The notes beneath the pieces are model-generated. The model made no database searches, had not been told where the DNA came from, and was given only the letters and a program-made list of their open reading frames with translations. The position numbers were made by a program, and so were the translations under genes. A stretch of DNA of 32,115 nt, from positions 1 through 32,115 of the IMG/VR virus record IMGVR_UViG_3300044712_001138. One strand, written 5' to 3'. The stretch is from a virus. Of the stretch, positions 15,685 to 29,814 are shown in pieces; the first letter of the stretch is position 1; every line of letters begins with the position of its first letter.

Positions 15685-15713
15685 TTGACAAGGCGCGTAA
15701 AAAATGTTATAAT
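15685..15713 (+). promoter_or_regulatory. Consensus sigma-70 promoter for a short antisense RNA
   Basis: TTGACA (15685-15690), 17-bp spacer, TATAAT (15708-15713): a perfect match to the consensus boxes. Expected start is near 15720. It points away from the late genes and overlaps the Shine-Dalgarno of the fibre gene on the other strand. The sequence between and after the boxes resembles the promoter at 29786-29814. Confidence 0.8.
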
Positions 15714-15721
15714 AGGGATAC

Positions 15722-15750
15722 TACCGCCGGGGGTAAAGTAGGGGAAGGGA
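15722..15750 (+). repeat. 29-bp G-rich repeat, copy 1 (inverted relative to copy 2)
   Basis: Twenty-nine bases starting TACCGCCGGGGG and ending GGGGAAGGGA are identical to the reverse complement of 29749-29777. Identity stops exactly at both ends. It begins nine bases after the -10 box in both places, at about +3 of the transcript. Confidence 0.9.
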
Positions 15751-15767: not shown

Positions 15768-15793
15768 GCGACACTTTTAGGTGTCGCTTTTTT
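15768..15793 (+). terminator. Intrinsic terminator of the antisense RNA
   Basis: GCGACAC (15768-15774), loop TTTTAG, GTGTCGC (15781-15787), then six T. Perfect 7-bp stem. In the other direction the stem is not followed by T, so it should not stop late transcription. Confidence 0.8.
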
Positions 15794-15945
15794 ATTTCCG
15801 TTTGCTCCGGCGAGGCCGCTAGGCCGAAGCCGGCAGTATCTAGCTGTGTCTTACTTGTTGAGTTCATGATTGATGGGAGAGGAGACGATAGTCTCCGAAT
15901 CTTGGAAGAGAAAAGCTAAAGGCATTCCCTTAGTATTATACCCCT

Positions 15946-15974
15946 ATTATACCATAAATGCTGCGCAATGTCAA
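15946..15974 (-). promoter_or_regulatory. Late-operon promoter
   Basis: On the minus strand, TTGACA (15974-15969), 17-bp spacer, TATAAT (15951-15946), followed by AGGGG and a second TATAAT 11 bases on. The expected start near 15939 gives a leader of about 268 nt before the fibre gene. The -35 lies in an inverted repeat, GTCAAG-N6-CTTGAC (15970-15987), shared with the divergent promoter at 15983, a possible operator. Confidence 0.75.
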
Positions 15975-16732: not shown

Positions 16733-17278
16733 TTAAGGCGCTTCAAAAGTGATAGGAGCGTCAGCTTCAAAGTTATATGGCTGAGCGACTTCAGTTACAG
16801 ATGCATAGTATCCGCTCGGAGCCACAGAACCCGAAAGACTCGTATTGCAAGTTGAACCCTGAACACTCGCATAAGTTATCAGTGGAAGTGAATCAGTTGA
16901 GCGGCTGCCAATGAGATAATACTTAGATTGCACAACGTCATAGTAAACTGTTTTGCCCGAAACGCCTTTACTTGAGTCGGAAATCATAACAGGTGTTCCA
17001 GTGCAGTTACCAGAACTGTAGTACATTCCCATACCGGAATGATATGCATAGCGGCCAGTTTGAAGATCTATAGTTGCGAAGCGATCAGCTGAGGGAATAT
17101 ATACGTGTGCAACGTCAGAACGAATTAGATCTATTAAGTATGAGGTTATCGTCCCGCTCTTTTTAGAGACGAGATACGGTTTACCAGTTTGAGTTGAGGC
17201 AGCATTGTCAGACTTCTTACCACACCCGACTAATGCCGAAAGAATTAGGACCGTCGTGAAAGCATTGATTTTTGTCAT
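16733..17278 (-). CDS. Predicted outer-membrane lipoprotein
   Basis: A 181-residue protein. The N-terminus MTKINAFTTVLILSALVGCG is a lipoprotein signal with lipobox LVGC and cleavage before Cys19, followed by a KKSDN linker. The mature part is beta-rich with aromatic clusters (RYAYHSGMGMYYSSGNCTGT, GKTVYYDVVQSKYYLIGS) and two spaced cysteines that could pair. No known domain is recognised. It stands alone on the minus strand, with a TATAAT at 17304-17299 and a palindrome upstream, suggesting its own regulated promoter. A role in lysogenic conversion or superinfection exclusion is possible but purely inferential. Confidence 0.75.
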   Translation of the reverse strand: MTKINAFTTVLILSALVGCGKKSDNAASTQTGKPYLVSKKSGTITSYLIDLIRSDVAHVYIPSADRFATIDLQTGRYAYHSGMGMYYSSGNCTGTPVMISDSSKGVSGKTVYYDVVQSKYYLIGSRSTDSLPLITYASVQGSTCNTSLSGSVAPSGYYASVTEVAQPYNFEADAPITFEAP

Positions 17279-17335: not shown

Positions 17336-17908
17336 TTAAGTTTTCTTAAGTGCTTTTGCAACGCCCTGCTTCGTGATGCCGAAGTGATTACCTATTTCGC
17401 TTAGCGACTGACCAGCTGCGCGCATCTGTTTCGCTCGCGCTATATCGATAACCTGTTTTCGCCCGAGTACAACGCCACGTGACTTCGCATGTTTCAGTCC
17501 GGCCTTCACACGCTCTTTAATAAGAGCTGCTTCAAATTCACCCATTGCGCCGATGATCTGTACCATCAAACGGCCAGATGGAGTTGTGAGATCAATCTGG
17601 TCTTTTAGTGAAACTAATTCAACACCGAGAGTTTCGAATTCATGAATTGTAGTTATGAGATGTCTTAGAGATCTGAATAGACGATCGAGTTTCCATATGA
17701 GAACGCGCTTAACTCGGCCTGCTCTACAGTCAGCAAGTAAATACTGCAACTGTTGTCTGTTTCCATTAGTCCCAGTCTTTCCGTTGTCCTCATAGACCGC
17801 TATATCATCCCATCCGCGAGCCTTTGCGAGATTTAATAGGTCTTGCCTTTGAAGGTCTGTACTTTGTTCTAAAGTCGATACTCGTATGTATATAGCTGTT
17901 TTCAGCAT
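17336..17908 (-). CDS. Serine recombinase (resolvase/invertase family)
   Basis: A 190-residue protein of the usual resolvase/invertase length. Catalytic N-terminal domain: AIYIRVSTLEQ with nucleophile Ser11 and Arg9, GKTGTNGNRQQLQ, and VLIWKLDRLFRSLRHLI supplying the conserved arginines near 70-75. Then a long E-helix (MVQIIGAMGEFEAALIKERV) and a C-terminal helix-turn-helix (AAGQSLSEIGNHFGITKQGV). GAGG lies five bases before the ATG. These enzymes cut and rejoin DNA at short sites with a 2-bp centre. It may resolve multimers or invert a segment; the nearby fibre genes and the inverted 29-bp repeats that bracket it make inversion worth testing. Confidence 0.85.
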   Translation of the reverse strand: MLKTAIYIRVSTLEQSTDLQRQDLLNLAKARGWDDIAVYEDNGKTGTNGNRQQLQYLLADCRAGRVKRVLIWKLDRLFRSLRHLITTIHEFETLGVELVSLKDQIDLTTPSGRLMVQIIGAMGEFEAALIKERVKAGLKHAKSRGVVLGRKQVIDIARAKQMRAAGQSLSEIGNHFGITKQGVAKALKKT

Positions 17909-18107: not shown

Positions 18108-18695
18108 ATGAATAAAAAGGACTTAGAACTAAATAAAATGTTAATAGTCGCTTCAATCTTAACCGTCCTTGCTTTAACGGCTTGTGGACCGGGCGTTGGA
18201 ATCAGAAATGCGGGCAACTCTGAAGAACCAAACGTTGTATTACTTCCAGCTGAGTTACCAGCTGAGATCGCAAATGATGATGATAACGAAGAACAAGAAA
18301 TAGTCGTTGTTCTTAATGTGGAAAACCACGCGAACGATCAAGTTATCAATGAAGCACACGAAGCAAACATTGAAGTGATCGAAGTTCAATCGGAAACACC
18401 AGTCGAAGAGATCATTGCAGCTATCGAAGAGATTGCCACAGTTGATGAAGTAACAATTCAAACTATTCAAGACGCAATTGCAGATGAAGCAGAAGTTATC
18501 ACACTCGAAGTAACTCCAGAGCCACAACACGAAGAAGCTGCTCCAGTAGTTGAAGTGGTCCCTCAAGTCGAAGTTGTAGTCATCCCTGTTATCACACCCT
18601 CGCCTACACCGACACCTACACCAGTTATCGAACTACCAAAGCATTGCAGTGATGGTCACGGCAAAGACGGTTCTAAATCTAAAGCTTGTAAATAA
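18108..18695 (+). CDS. Acidic Val/Glu-rich lipoprotein with Pro-Thr stalk
   Basis: A 195-residue protein with GGAG six bases before the ATG. The N-terminus has a signal with lipobox LTAC (Cys26). The mature part is strongly acidic and rich in Val, Glu and Ile (EEQEIVVVLNVENH, VDEVTIQTIQDAIADEAEVI), then a SPTPTPTPV stalk and a Lys/Gly/Ser tail with two cysteines (HCSDGHGKDGSKSKACK). No domain is recognised. It is the first gene of a rightward operon and may be a surface-exposed accessory lipoprotein. Confidence 0.75.
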   Translation: MNKKDLELNKMLIVASILTVLALTACGPGVGIRNAGNSEEPNVVLLPAELPAEIANDDDNEEQEIVVVLNVENHANDQVINEAHEANIEVIEVQSETPVEEIIAAIEEIATVDEVTIQTIQDAIADEAEVITLEVTPEPQHEEAAPVVEVVPQVEVVVIPVITPSPTPTPTPVIELPKHCSDGHGKDGSKSKACK

Positions 18696-18706
18696 TAGGA
18701 GTGAAT

Positions 18707-18904
18707 ATGAGTACACGAACAGTAGTTATTTTAACGTCAGACAATTTCAAAGCAACTTGCGTGAGCTTCGAAGCTTACCGCGAAATCAGACTTAGCATGA
18801 GCACTGGAGACTTTCACACTCACGAATATGAAGTTGTGGAAGTGCCAGAGAATCAGGAAGTGATCGAAGTCGATGATCTACTTTTAAACGGAGAGTTAGT
18901 ATGA
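18707..18904 (+). CDS. Small acidic protein of unknown function
   Basis: A 65-residue protein. The ATG at 18707 is preferred over the GTG two codons upstream because GGAG is then five bases away. The sequence MSTRTVVILTSDNFKATCVS continues into an acidic C-terminus (YEVVEVPENQEVIEVDDLLL). It overlaps the next gene by ATGA, so translation is coupled. No family recognised. Confidence 0.65.
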   Translation: MSTRTVVILTSDNFKATCVSFEAYREIRLSMSTGDFHTHEYEVVEVPENQEVIEVDDLLLNGELV

Positions 18905-19662
18905 ATAAGAACTACTTTAAAAAGCTATCTGAAGAACTAAACACTTGGGTAAAGAATAATAAAAACTGGAGAGAAGACCGAAGACTTATCGTTGAACAGA
19001 CGGGTTTTCGACAACTCCACGTTGCAGACCGTGGATTGAATCATAATGAATCAAAGCTATTGAGCTTCGGAACTAAAATAATTGAAGCTCAGTCTATTCA
19101 CTTAGCATATGAACCGAAATACAACTTCTTAACACTCTATGTGAAGTCAACTATTCACTCTAACGATGCAGGTACTTATTTAGAGTTAAGGAAAGACGGA
19201 AAAACTTTTTCGGTTACGTTACATGATCGTGACGAAAAACTTCCTTGGAGAATTAAAGACATTCCAGGCTTTGAGGATGTCTCGCCTAATTTATTCCAAT
19301 GTTATGCCCAAGATGATTTTAAAGAAGCCTTAACGAAAGCAGGTTATAAGATTCTAGTCTTCTTTAGATTCACGCATGTGATAGCAGCTCCGAGCTTCGC
19401 ACATACTCACGCGAGTTCAACTGAAAAAAACGGCTTTAAAAAAACTCAGCGAGGCTTTGAACTGAAAGGCCGATCATTTGGGACTTATAACAGCGTCCCA
19501 TATTTCATTGAAGTTAAGAAGGCTAAATCTCTCGGAACAATTCCATTGCAAGCTTTAGGAATTGAACAGAAGGGTTACTATTCACACGATCAACGCTGCT
19601 CAATTTTAAAATCTGAAGCATTGGAAGCTAAGCGCTTCTTCAAACGGAAGGGGTTGTTATGA
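18901..19662 (+). CDS. Unknown 253-residue protein
   Basis: A soluble, mixed-charge protein with GGAGA before its start and four-base overlaps (ATGA) with both neighbours. Visible stretches: FLTLYVKSTIHSNDAGTYLE, SVTLHDRDEKLPWRIKDIPG, a hydrophobic strand YKILVFFRFTHVIAAPSFAH with HTHAS after it, and a basic C-terminus (LEAKRFFKRKGLL). No signal peptide or membrane helix. I do not recognise the family; an intracellular phage accessory function is all that can be said. Confidence 0.7.
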   Translation: MNKNYFKKLSEELNTWVKNNKNWREDRRLIVEQTGFRQLHVADRGLNHNESKLLSFGTKIIEAQSIHLAYEPKYNFLTLYVKSTIHSNDAGTYLELRKDGKTFSVTLHDRDEKLPWRIKDIPGFEDVSPNLFQCYAQDDFKEALTKAGYKILVFFRFTHVIAAPSFAHTHASSTEKNGFKKTQRGFELKGRSFGTYNSVPYFIEVKKAKSLGTIPLQALGIEQKGYYSHDQRCSILKSEALEAKRFFKRKGLL

Positions 19663-19919
19663 GTAAACGATTCTATATCCCATTCAACATGGCGATCTAT
19701 AACAATGGCGGTTACAAGTTAGATTTAATTAAGGCTGCTATTAAAGAAGCAGGCGGGAAGAATGTACGACAAGCGAATCAGTTTGGTTGGAGTAACCAAC
19801 CCAAGGTTGTAACTTTTTCAGCTGACAGAAAAGAGCTGGTCGAAAAAATTGAACGGCACGTGGCATTCGTTTGTCGATACCCAGATTGGGCCATAATTGC
19901 AGCGAGGGTTTCAGAATGA
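19659..19919 (+). CDS. Small unknown protein
   Basis: An 86-residue protein with AAGGGG five bases before the ATG. The sequence MSKRFYIPFNMAIYNNGGYK has a basic helix (LDLIKAAIKEAGGKNVRQAN) and a C-terminal part PDWAIIAARVSE. It overlaps the CarD-like gene by ATGA, so the two are probably co-translated and may act together. Family not recognised. Confidence 0.65.
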   Translation: MSKRFYIPFNMAIYNNGGYKLDLIKAAIKEAGGKNVRQANQFGWSNQPKVVTFSADRKELVEKIERHVAFVCRYPDWAIIAARVSE

Positions 19920-20368
19920 AACCTAAATTTAAAGTTGGACAACGTGTAGTCCATAAGTCACACGGTCCTGGAATCATCACGGCAATTGAAGAGCGTCAGT
20001 TCGATCCTGACAACGTGACAACATTCTACATTATTGCCTTAAGAGATTTCGGTACTACTAAGAAGATATTCGTACCGCTAAAGTCCGCAGACGAGCGTTT
20101 ACGTCTTCCAGTTGACGACGAAGGCAAAGAACAGATTCTTGCAATGCTTTCAAGTGCTCCTGAAGATTCATTCAAAGGCTTTAGTTACAAGCAGCGATAC
20201 CACAAGATGATGGAGCGTATTCGAAGCGGTGATCTACACTGCGTTTCGGAAGTTGCAGCAATCCTATTGCAACTCAGAAAAGAAGAAAAATTAAGTTTTA
20301 TTGAGCACCGACTGCTCTTGCAGTGCCTCGAAATCATTGAGGCAGAACTACAAGTCAAAGTTTCGTAA
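19916..20368 (+). CDS. CarD/CdnL-like RNA polymerase-binding regulator
   Basis: A 150-residue protein starting at the ATG that overlaps the previous stop; GAGGG lies upstream, and a longer in-frame start at 19871 lies inside the previous gene. Residues 5-65 have the CarD/TRCF RNA polymerase-interacting domain pattern: FKVGQRVVHKSHGPGIITAI, FYIIALRD, IFVPLKSADERLRLP. Residues 90-146 match the helical C-terminal domain: YKQRYHKMMERIRSGDLHCV, SEVAAILLQL, then KLSFIEHRLLLQCLEIIEAE. Known CarD/CdnL proteins bind the RNAP beta lobe and stabilise the open complex. In a phage this suggests control of host or phage promoters; that is inference. I do not see the C-terminal tryptophan wedge at its usual place. 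Confidence 0.75.
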   Translation: MKPKFKVGQRVVHKSHGPGIITAIEERQFDPDNVTTFYIIALRDFGTTKKIFVPLKSADERLRLPVDDEGKEQILAMLSSAPEDSFKGFSYKQRYHKMMERIRSGDLHCVSEVAAILLQLRKEEKLSFIEHRLLLQCLEIIEAELQVKVS

Positions 20369-20400: not shown

Positions 20401-20589
20401 ATGCAGAACATCAAACTAGTCGTGTCTTGTCTTGAGTGTGAAGACTCTCAATTCGTTGAGGGCGAACCTTGTCAGGAATGCTGCCCACATAATGAATTTG
20501 AGCACTTCACGTGTCTCGACTGTGGCTATGAGAAGTGCCCTGGAGACTGTATAGACCGTGCCGAATACTACATCGATCCAGAAAGATAG
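20401..20589 (+). CDS. Cys-rich zinc-finger-like miniprotein
   Basis: A 62-residue acidic protein with GGGGA before its ATG. Cysteines are arranged as CLEC, CQECC, then CLDCGYEKCPGDC, enough for one or two zinc sites. Such miniproteins are common phage early products of unknown function. It is separated from the integrase by a repeat-rich spacer. Confidence 0.65.
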   Translation: MQNIKLVVSCLECEDSQFVEGEPCQECCPHNEFEHFTCLDCGYEKCPGDCIDRAEYYIDPER

Positions 20590-20775
20590 GAGATTGCAAA
20601 CGCCTGAAAATTCAGGCATATAGGGCTTCTTCACACGGGTGCATCATCCGTTGGGGACGCCAATTTAAGCCTTAAAGCTAATGATTTCAGGTACTTAACT
20701 GTGGTGACCGTGTGATAACTTCACACGTTCACACGGTGCTATTAACCCCGTGTGGCGTATAACCGATGAGGCTAT
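20590..20775. promoter_or_regulatory. CACACGG-box region before the integrase (att/arm-site or operator candidate)
   Basis: A gene-free spacer with five copies of CACACG(G): 20632-20638 (+), 20708-20714 (-), 20722-20727 (+), 20730-20736 (+) and 20748-20754 (-), plus GCCTGAA-AA-TTCAGGC at 20602-20617. Phage integrases usually have attP, with short arm-type repeats, beside int. The same layout could be operators for an unidentified regulator. Confidence 0.5.
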
Positions 20776-21864
20776 ATGGGTTACACAGTACGAAAGAAGT
20801 CTGGCCGCTGGTATGTTCAGTATGAAACATACCCTGACGGCAAACGAACAGCGAAAACAGTTGCCGGTGAGGATCTTGCAAGGCTTGGCATTCAAGATCA
20901 CATGTCTATCGAAGACGTGAAACTGATCATCAAAGACGTTAACCGTCACGAGAGAAAAACGCGATGGGATGCTAAGCGCTTCCGCATTCAAGAACGGATG
21001 GAAGCTGACGCCGTTGTTACGGTAAAGACTTTGCCACGAACTTTTGTGTCCGAGTTTGAAGACGAACTCCACTCCTATCCAAATTGGAAGAAGCTCCTCT
21101 CTAATTGGAATAGAGCTAAGAAGCTCATTGCCACGCTAAACATCCCCAGTGACCAGTGGAAGCGACGCAAGCAAGCAATCTATAACTACTTCGAAGAGAA
21201 TAGACTTTCGGATGCATATGCCAAAAAGGTGATACGCGTCATGAATCTATGGGGTGACTTCTATTCCCAGAAGACAGGTACTGCCTTTAGTATCTTGCCG
21301 ACGCCGAAAGGCCACGCGAAGAGTCGCATTCGAAAGAAGTATGAAAGTTCCCGTAAAGTTGCAAAGGCCTCCGAAGGATTGACGGAAGATCTACTGCGAA
21401 GCATCAAGCAGACGATGATGCCCCTGCAATACAATTGGCTCTTTATAAGTCTCTGGTTTGGCTTGCGCCCCAATGAAATGCGCAATCTAGACAAAGCTCA
21501 ACTAACTTATGTGACTTATGATCCCGATAAGAAGTTGTACTTCCTAAACATAAAGCAGACCAAGCTTTCAAACTTGTCGGATGATTTACAGTGGAAAATA
21601 ATCCCAGTTCTTTATCCAGAACAGAAAGCAGCACTGGAATTAATAAATAGTAAGTCCTACGACGAGCCGCTGCCTAAGACAGTGCGTCTACACTCTAAAG
21701 GGAACTATAAGTTGTATGCTGGTCGAAAAGGTTTCGGCCCTTTAATGTGGGACAAAGGCCATGATATTGTTGAGGTTAGTAGTTGGCTTGGCCACAAGTC
21801 CATTGACAGAACCTATGCTGACTATATGAATTGGAAGAAACTTAAACTAAGATTTGTGGCATAA
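20776..21864 (+). CDS. Tyrosine-recombinase integrase
   Basis: A 362-residue protein. The N-terminus (MGYTVRKKSGRWYVQYETYP, DGKRTAKTV) is an arm-binding-like beta domain; residues about 85-165 form the core-binding helical domain. Catalytic domain: FGLRPNEMRNL with Arg231, a lysine at NIKQTK (260-263), YAGRKGF with Arg317 in box II (Tyr in place of the usual His), WLGHKSIDRT with His340, and the nucleophile probably Tyr350 (alternatively Tyr347) in TYADYMNW. GAGG is four bases before the ATG. It would integrate the genome into the host chromosome and marks the phage as temperate. The preceding repeat region is a natural place for attP. Confidence 0.8.
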   Translation: MGYTVRKKSGRWYVQYETYPDGKRTAKTVAGEDLARLGIQDHMSIEDVKLIIKDVNRHERKTRWDAKRFRIQERMEADAVVTVKTLPRTFVSEFEDELHSYPNWKKLLSNWNRAKKLIATLNIPSDQWKRRKQAIYNYFEENRLSDAYAKKVIRVMNLWGDFYSQKTGTAFSILPTPKGHAKSRIRKKYESSRKVAKASEGLTEDLLRSIKQTMMPLQYNWLFISLWFGLRPNEMRNLDKAQLTYVTYDPDKKLYFLNIKQTKLSNLSDDLQWKIIPVLYPEQKAALELINSKSYDEPLPKTVRLHSKGNYKLYAGRKGFGPLMWDKGHDIVEVSSWLGHKSIDRTYADYMNWKKLKLRFVA

Positions 21865-22492: not shown

Positions 22493-22669
22493 ATGATGTA
22501 CGTTAGTAAACGCGCTAGTATAGCACTTAAATCCATCAAGTACATTCATGACGGCCTTGAACAAGCTACTCGTGAACAGAATCTGAAAGCATTTTTCAAA
22601 CTGCTTCAGGTGCTCTGTTACGAGACTAAGCAATTGGCCCTTGAGATGGACAAACGTAAGGAGTCCCGT
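22493..22669 (+). other. In-frame leaderless N-terminal extension upstream of the lipoprotein
   Basis: From ATG 22493 the frame stays open without a stop into the lipoprotein gene. These 59 codons encode a basic, helical segment ([40 protein letters not shown]). A product starting here would carry the lipoprotein signal internally and would not be lipidated normally; alternatively the region is a short N-terminal ORF fused in frame. Both starts look usable. Confidence 0.5.
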
Positions 22670-23242
22670 ATGAAAACAGTAGCAATGATTGCCCTAGGTT
22701 TATTTCTCATTGGTTGTTCTAATCACGACCACTTTGTGGGAAGTGCTTCATGCACTGTAACGGGAACAGGTGCTCTCACCTGCCCTGACGGATCTAGTTA
22801 TCAAGTTAACAGTGGCATCGACGGTAAAGACGGTTTAAATGGTGCTCAAGGTGCAACGGGTCCGCAAGGACCGCAAGGCCTTCAAGGCAACGATGGTCCT
22901 CAAGGTCCAACCGGCGCTACAGGTGCGACTGGAGCCACGGGTGCAACTGGAGCACAAGGTCCCCAAGGCGCTCAAGGACCACAAGGCATTGCAGGGACCA
23001 ATGGCACGAATGGTACCAACGGGATTGATGCAACTCCTACCTCGGTAGTGCAACTATGTGGAAGCTGTACAGCAGCTTATCCAAACGTGTTTCCTGAGAT
23101 TGGTCTTTGTCTTGCTGGCAAACTCTATGGAGTTTACTCAGCCAATAATGGTTTCTTAGTTTACTTATCAAATGGCACATACAATTCGAACGGCATCAAC
23201 TGTAGCTGCTCATTCGTAGTTAACGGATGCAATATTCAGTAA
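22670..23242 (+). CDS. Collagen-like lipoprotein
   Basis: 190 residues from the ATG at 22670, with AAGGAG six bases upstream; chosen because [16 protein letters not shown] is a lipoprotein signal with lipobox LIGC (Cys16). A short domain ([19 protein letters not shown]) leads into 24 consecutive Gly-X-Y triplets ([15 protein letters not shown], four GAT, three GTN), then a Cys-containing C-terminal globular part ([32 protein letters not shown]). Collagen-like triplets form trimeric rods; in phages they occur in fibres, in bacteria in surface lipoproteins. The lipobox favours a surface lipoprotein made in the infected or lysogenic cell. An in-frame upstream start exists at 22493. Confidence 0.8.
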
Positions 23243-29748: not shown

Positions 29749-29777
29749 TCCCTTCCCCTACTTTACCCCCGGCGGTA
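29749..29777 (-). repeat. 29-bp G-rich repeat, copy 2
   Basis: The exact reverse complement of 15722-15750. It occupies about +3 to +31 of the transcript from the promoter at 29786-29814. Downstream in the same leader are hairpins GGATGC-GTAG-GCATCC (29746-29731) and CCCCT-N6-AGGGG (about 29700-29715). Confidence 0.9.
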
Positions 29778-29785
29778 ACTTCCCC

Positions 29786-29814
29786 ATTATAGCACGTATA
29801 ATGCGTTTTGTCAA
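29786..29814 (-). promoter_or_regulatory. Consensus promoter with 180-nt leader for the leftward operon
   Basis: Minus strand: TTGACA (29814-29809), 17-bp spacer, TATAAT (29791-29786), then GGGGAAG and the 29-bp repeat. Start near 29779. It resembles the promoter at 15685-15713 also in the spacer (CGC shortly after the -35, TGY before the -10). It reads through the second promoter at 29607 into the operon. Confidence 0.8.

Follow-up and report, generated by a model that had tools for sequence, protein, structure and literature searches.

Introduction

CarD is a bacterial protein that acts on RNA polymerase (RNAP) and keeps promoters open, and phages take over RNAP with inhibitors of their own or with DksA homologues. 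In M. xanthus CdnL, residues F36, M49 and P51 contact the RNAP beta subunit; joint replacement of R90, R91 and R93 with alanine abolishes open-complex stabilisation, and W88A is nearly silent (PMC4182748). A tryptophan wedge (W85/W86) present in more than 95% of CarDs holds the upstream fork open, and partial activation remains after a Trp-to-Tyr replacement in T. thermophilus CarD (PMC4593161). Phage lambda encodes a DksA homologue, Orf73, an inhibitor of rRNA promoters that increases the yield of phage three- to four-fold (PMC9239242).

The protein described here, P0001, is encoded in a 32-kb IMG/VR virus record without end repeats (32,115 nucleotides, IMGVR_UViG_3300044712_001138), hereafter called the window. 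P0001 resembles the cellular CarD/CdnL proteins of M. tuberculosis, M. xanthus and T. thermophilus in the order of its RNA polymerase interaction domain (RID) and C-terminal domain (CTD, CarD_C), in its beta-contact positions, hydrophobic core and length class. It differs from them in being phage-encoded, in having tyrosine at the wedge and Gln and His at the R90 and R93 equivalents, in lacking about 15 C-terminal residues, and in a CTD that is less conserved than the RID. Like TraR and lambda Orf73, it is a mobile-element homologue of a host initiation factor that binds RNAP independently of DNA sequence (PMC9239242), and its gene lies near an integrase gene as orf73 lies near excision/integration genes. 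However, TraR and Orf73 belong to another protein family and use the RNAP secondary channel rather than the beta lobe; the effects of Orf73 have been demonstrated, whereas P0001 is a proposed functional analogue.

A CarD/CdnL gene in an apparent operon beside an integrase gene

The gene and its two domains are placed as follows.

19916-20368, + strand: CarD/CdnL homologue P0001, 150 aa, ATG to TAA
19928-20104, + strand: RID, aa 5-63 (Pfam), with F37, F52 and P54 kept and clade-specific indels
20138-20353, + strand: CTD, aa 75-146 (Pfam), with SYKQRYHKM at aa 90-98

Both Pfam matches lie well above their cut-offs: CarD_TRCF_RID (PF02559) with E 2.8e-10 and 40.6 bits against 23, and CarD_C (PF21095) with E 9.9e-11 and 41.9 bits against 23.1. 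All PDB matches are CarD/CdnL (best E 2.9e-10), and a profile-profile comparison by hhalign with 17 cellular and phage CarDs, P0001 itself left out, gave 99.4% over aa 4-144. The preliminary description of this DNA, which had proposed a phage-encoded CarD/CdnL-like protein here and profile-profile comparison as a check, is thus borne out. It had also described both domains as near full length, which holds with one reservation: the CarD_C profile is matched over positions 3-72 of 87, and its last approximately 15 positions are missing. Searches of NCBIfam and PHROGs with P0001 gave no match, and the DksA/TraR family was not matched in Pfam, PHROG or NCBIfam. No TRCF/Mfd translocase/helicase domain accompanies the RID, since RID and CarD_C are the only Pfam domains found in the 150 aa. 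These matches make P0001 a clear member of the family even though it differs at the wedge tryptophan and the arginines; the wedge tryptophan is typical of CarD membership, not a strict requirement.

The reading frame is not a chance ORF. When a host CarD gene was allowed to drift neutrally in simulation to 36% identity, the frame stayed open in just 0.2% of runs and acquired 5.6 stops on average, indicating that P0001 has been maintained as a protein.

The gene sits in a tight + strand gene cluster (starts 18701, 18901, 19659, 19916 and 20401) with ATGA overlaps, an apparent operon that adjoins a tyrosine integrase gene.

18701-18904, + strand: first small cistron, 67 aa, no assigned function
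18901-19662, + strand: cistron of 253 aa, no family, 4-bp overlap with the next gene; no match in 368 Bdellovibrionota genomes
19659-19919, + strand: cistron of 86 aa, weak match to PHROG 32873 (function unknown), 4-bp overlap (ATGA) with the CarD start
20401-20589, + strand: downstream cistron, 62 aa, Cys-rich, with homologues in the CarD-less relatives G004 and G005
20776-21864, + strand: tyrosine integrase (PHROG integrase)

The P0001 start codon overlaps the upstream stop and a Shine-Dalgarno-like GAGGG motif is present, features with which the annotated start appears plausible. The block of approximately 16.7-23.2 kb that includes the CarD gene has almost no counterpart in related phage contigs. 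A serine recombinase gene (17336-17908, - strand) and the tyrosine integrase gene share one module with putative lipoprotein genes at 16733-17278 and 18108-18695, and a collagen-like gene follows at 22493-23242. Several copies of CACACGG or CCGTGTG were noted by eye at 20600-20775, just 5' of the integrase gene; these might serve as arm sites for the integrase, as attP or as operators.

Phage relatives and the search for other phage CarDs

The window portal is 53-80% identical to the portals of 50 other IMG/VR contigs (L004-L053), and less than 28% identical to deposited phages among the matches listed. These contigs form a big group of uncultured phages that have a common portal and to which no deposited isolate is close. 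The relatives have kept the portal, terminase and capsid-region genes, and CarD is present in one of the 50, IMGVR_UViG_3300003890_000037 (hereafter G034), the closest relative of the window by gene content among those found. CarD was not found in the other 49 contigs, most of which are fragments; six of the 50 exceed 30 kb, and five of these six lack CarD.

With MT836417.1 removed, a search of 50,697 deposited phage records gave no true phage CarD match. This sole match (L003, labelled "Bacteriophage sp." in GenBank) is a mislabelled bacterial chromosome fragment, and the neighbours of its CarD gene look like ispD, ispH-rpsA and other genes. When IMG/VR was scanned with the single sequences of P0001 and the integrase, a method that can miss relatives, nothing was returned. 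Broader CarD pattern scans, with the same weakness, returned only G034 and L139 (IMGVR 3300044836_000085); the CarD of the latter lies beside an M13-family peptidase gene at a GC-rich prophage edge and was judged to be host flank. More phage CarDs may therefore exist than the scans reveal. The papers searched contained no report of one, and PHROGs hold no CarD family matching P0001.

Probable donor clade of the phage CarD

The best matches of P0001 among the 368 Bdellovibrionota genomes are exactly the 14 genomes of one clade of freshwater and groundwater Bdellovibrionota (L058-L070, L153), with E values of 1e-24 to 1e-27; the best match outside this set has 2e-16. The CarDs of this clade, which are also the best database matches, are 34-37% identical to P0001 and, unlike P0001, fully canonical. 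Two indels in the RID of P0001 occur in 14/14 of these genomes and in 0/78 other scoreable CarDs; outside this clade they are found only in the CarD of G034. Moreover, the best integrase match among the 368 genomes falls in one of the same 14 (G336). P0001 sits on a long branch, saturated at a length of 10, that the tree fails to place (AU test p 0.54), and the donor assignment therefore rests on the indels and the jump in match scores.

P0001 was most likely captured from this clade, and the capture appears to be old, the copy having diverged strongly since. We conclude that both this phage and G034 infect, or infected, the donor clade and took CarD from there. The window phage probably infects Bdellovibrio-type bacteria, and the two CarD genes captured within the L004-L053 group and the window make Bdellovibrionota the probable hosts of that group. 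A prophage of this kind was sought by portal protein in the 368 Bdellovibrionota genomes in a search run without a positive control, and none was found.

A probable separate capture in G034

The CarD of G034 has 165 aa, shares 81-87% identity with its chromosomal counterparts in the same clade and nests with the host-clade CarDs in the tree with 99% support. It is canonical at the fork motif (TWNRRYRDY). Its site differs from that in the window, lying in the packaging region beside a small-terminase-like gene, where a host CarD gene with its upstream DNA has been inserted (L054, 1094-2080). A 77-bp direct repeat, 97% identical, bounds the insert and is a duplication of the first part of the gene that follows. 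A homologue of the window's integrase was not found in G034. Unless the assembly is chimeric, this CarD would be a fresh and independent capture of a host gene, and the two phages are most simply read as having captured CarD on two occasions. The independent second capture suggests that CarD is useful for these phages.

Divergence of the two CarD domains

P0001 is 49% identical to the host clade in the RID and 28% in the CTD. In cellular CarDs the CTD is the better conserved domain (69% versus 50%), and the ratio is never under 1.05; P0001 reverses this pattern. The M. xanthus beta-contact positions F36, M49 and P51 align to F37, F52 and P54 of P0001, and the host clade has F, F and P. Since these contact positions are kept, there is good support for the prediction that P0001 docks on the beta lobe of RNAP, and the suggestion of the preliminary description that the protein could act on host transcription is plausible.

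In the CTD, P0001 has SYKQRYHKM where 97 cellular sequences show TWNRRYREY with little or no variation. The wedge tryptophan, present in 97/97 aligned cellular CarDs, is Tyr91, and the M. xanthus R90-R91-R93 stretch corresponds to Q93-R94-H96, with one of the three arginines kept. The fork patch stays basic, as K92 and K97 are gained where R93 and R96 are lost. Conserved hydrophobic positions of the CTD keep their class in 20 of 23 cases, and conserved polar or glycine positions are kept in 13 of 23. Comparison of the two domains thus places the selective rewriting on the DNA-facing domain. The preliminary description did not notice the rewritten DNA-fork motif.

With this motif rewritten (Trp to Tyr, R..R to Q..H), canonical activity of P0001 is not to be assumed. 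On the other hand, its activity could be near normal, because the patch is basic and W88A in M. xanthus is nearly silent. The residue changes are those of a single sequence, the only one of the divergent P0001 type that was found.

Promoters and leader elements

The window contains three perfect TTGACA-N17-TATAAT promoters (0.01 expected), all of which carry TGn and a 17-bp spacer and continue with [AG]GGG, G-rich from -6 to -3, in agreement with the G-rich discriminator that had been noted before.

15685-15717, + strand: perfect extended -10 promoter, AGGG discriminator
15942-15974, - strand: perfect extended -10 promoter, AGGG, upstream of the late (structural) operon
29782-29814, - strand: perfect extended -10 promoter, GGGG

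RGGG occurs in 0/8 perfect promoters of CarD-less relatives, whose promoters in the place equivalent to the third, upstream of the 29.3-29.6 kb gene, differ at the discriminator and lack GGGG. G034, the other CarD-bearing phage, has no such perfect RGGG promoters. An association of RGGG with CarD in a Fisher test (3/3 versus 0/8, p 0.006) was set aside, because all three promoters belong to one genome and two of them have a leader in common.

This leader, TACCGCCGGGGGTAAAGTAGGGGAAGGGA, is an identical 29-nt sequence after two opposing perfect promoters (15722-15750, + strand; 29749-29777, - strand). Hairpins follow both copies, in one case a terminator at 15768-15787. Relatives G004, G005, G009 and G021 carry an inverted pair of leader-like repeats that is genome-specific in sequence, and in G004 and G005 these sit downstream of such promoters. 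The paired repeats resemble put/nut-type antitermination elements, and the G-rich start of two promoters may belong to the leader element. An Rfam search gave no match.

The promoter ending at 15974 is likely the late promoter. At 15974-15916 (- strand) a second TATAAT was observed 11 nt 3' of the -10 element, like a sigma-dependent pause signal, with a hairpin just past the start; this arrangement suggests Q-like control of the late genes.

The analysis does not bear out the view that a G-rich discriminator renders these promoters difficult and dependent on CarD. Their full architecture matches that of the engineered M. tuberculosis promoter AP3Stable (TG, GGGA and 17 bp), whose open complex is extra-stable and which CarD represses (PMC10232725). 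This likeness is not clean, because the same paper (PMC10232725) describes a promoter series in which more G+C across the discriminator makes complexes less stable and strengthens activation by CarD. The sign of a CarD effect on the three phage promoters is therefore uncertain, but difficult promoters are not what their complete architecture points to.

Possible roles of the phage CarD

P0001 is an intact two-domain CarD, most likely from this donor clade, with its DNA-facing domain rewritten. We propose, with the chances about evenly balanced in our estimate, that an ancient capture of the host-clade CarD has been kept functional and competes with or replaces host CarD, retuning initiation. 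P0001 would be made together with its small operon beside the integrase gene and would bind the beta lobe of host RNAP through the conserved RID. It would then compete with or replace host CarD at the stage of the promoter open complex, where the wedge tyrosine and the re-arranged basic fork patch would give open-complex lifetimes different from those with host CarD. Unstable CarD-dependent host promoters of the rRNA type would receive less help and very stable phage promoters would be relieved of CarD repression, both directions being presumed. More tentatively, and at less than even odds, phages of one Bdellovibrionota clade may repeatedly capture host CarD and make of it a protein that sits on RNAP and antagonises or retunes the host factor, with the wedge surface rewritten and the docking domain kept. 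Such a protein would be the CarD-derived equivalent of TraR and Orf73, which derive from DksA and of which Orf73 serves as a precedent. Against a model with an altered CarD stands the canonical CarD of G034, so that at least this phage is without an altered version.

The role favoured by the preliminary description, a canonical activator that stabilises open complexes and boosts phage promoters with G-rich discriminators, is unlikely in our judgement. Both domains are present, a wedge tyrosine retains partial activity (PMC4593161) and the fork patch is still basic; three strong RGGG promoters stand here against none of eight in CarD-less relatives, the equivalent place included, and higher discriminator G+C goes with more CarD activation in one promoter series (PMC10232725). 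However, the fork motif is rewritten, CarD represses promoters with TGn, GGGA and 17 bp (PMC10232725), a common leader means that two of the three are not independent, and G034 carries CarD without such promoters. That the gene is instead a moron next to the integrase gene, tuning the transcription of the host during lysogeny, for example under starvation, with no lytic role, seems quite improbable: the portal search, lacking a positive control, found no such prophage, and the CarD of G034 lies in the packaging region of a phage in which the window's integrase homologue was not found, even though the module is absent from relatives and adjoins integrase, serine recombinase and putative lipoprotein genes.

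A very improbable use of the RID would be to occupy the TRCF/Mfd site and keep repair or termination factors off RNAP transcribing the phage. The RID family is common to TRCF, which binds the same beta region (PMC4182748), and the RID is better kept than the CTD, but an intact-looking C-terminal domain would then be needless and nothing separates Mfd from CarD as the target. Least probable is a decaying, functionless passenger gene. The very long branch, the loss of many otherwise invariant residues and the lack of a homologue in the related contigs, 49 in all once G034 with its independent copy is set aside, are what such a gene would leave; the rarity of open frames in the neutral simulations, the kept hydrophobic core classes and RNAP contact positions and the apparent translational coupling to the upstream cistron argue against it.

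If docking is kept while the wedge surface is rewritten, P0001 is a natural CarD mutant in which binding to RNAP would be uncoupled from stabilisation of the bubble, and the fresh copy in G034 and the diverged P0001 make a before-and-after pair. P0001 would also show which promoters need CarD in predatory-type bacteria, a dependence that to our knowledge is unstudied. By taking over CarD, these viruses may be better able to direct the expression of host genes.
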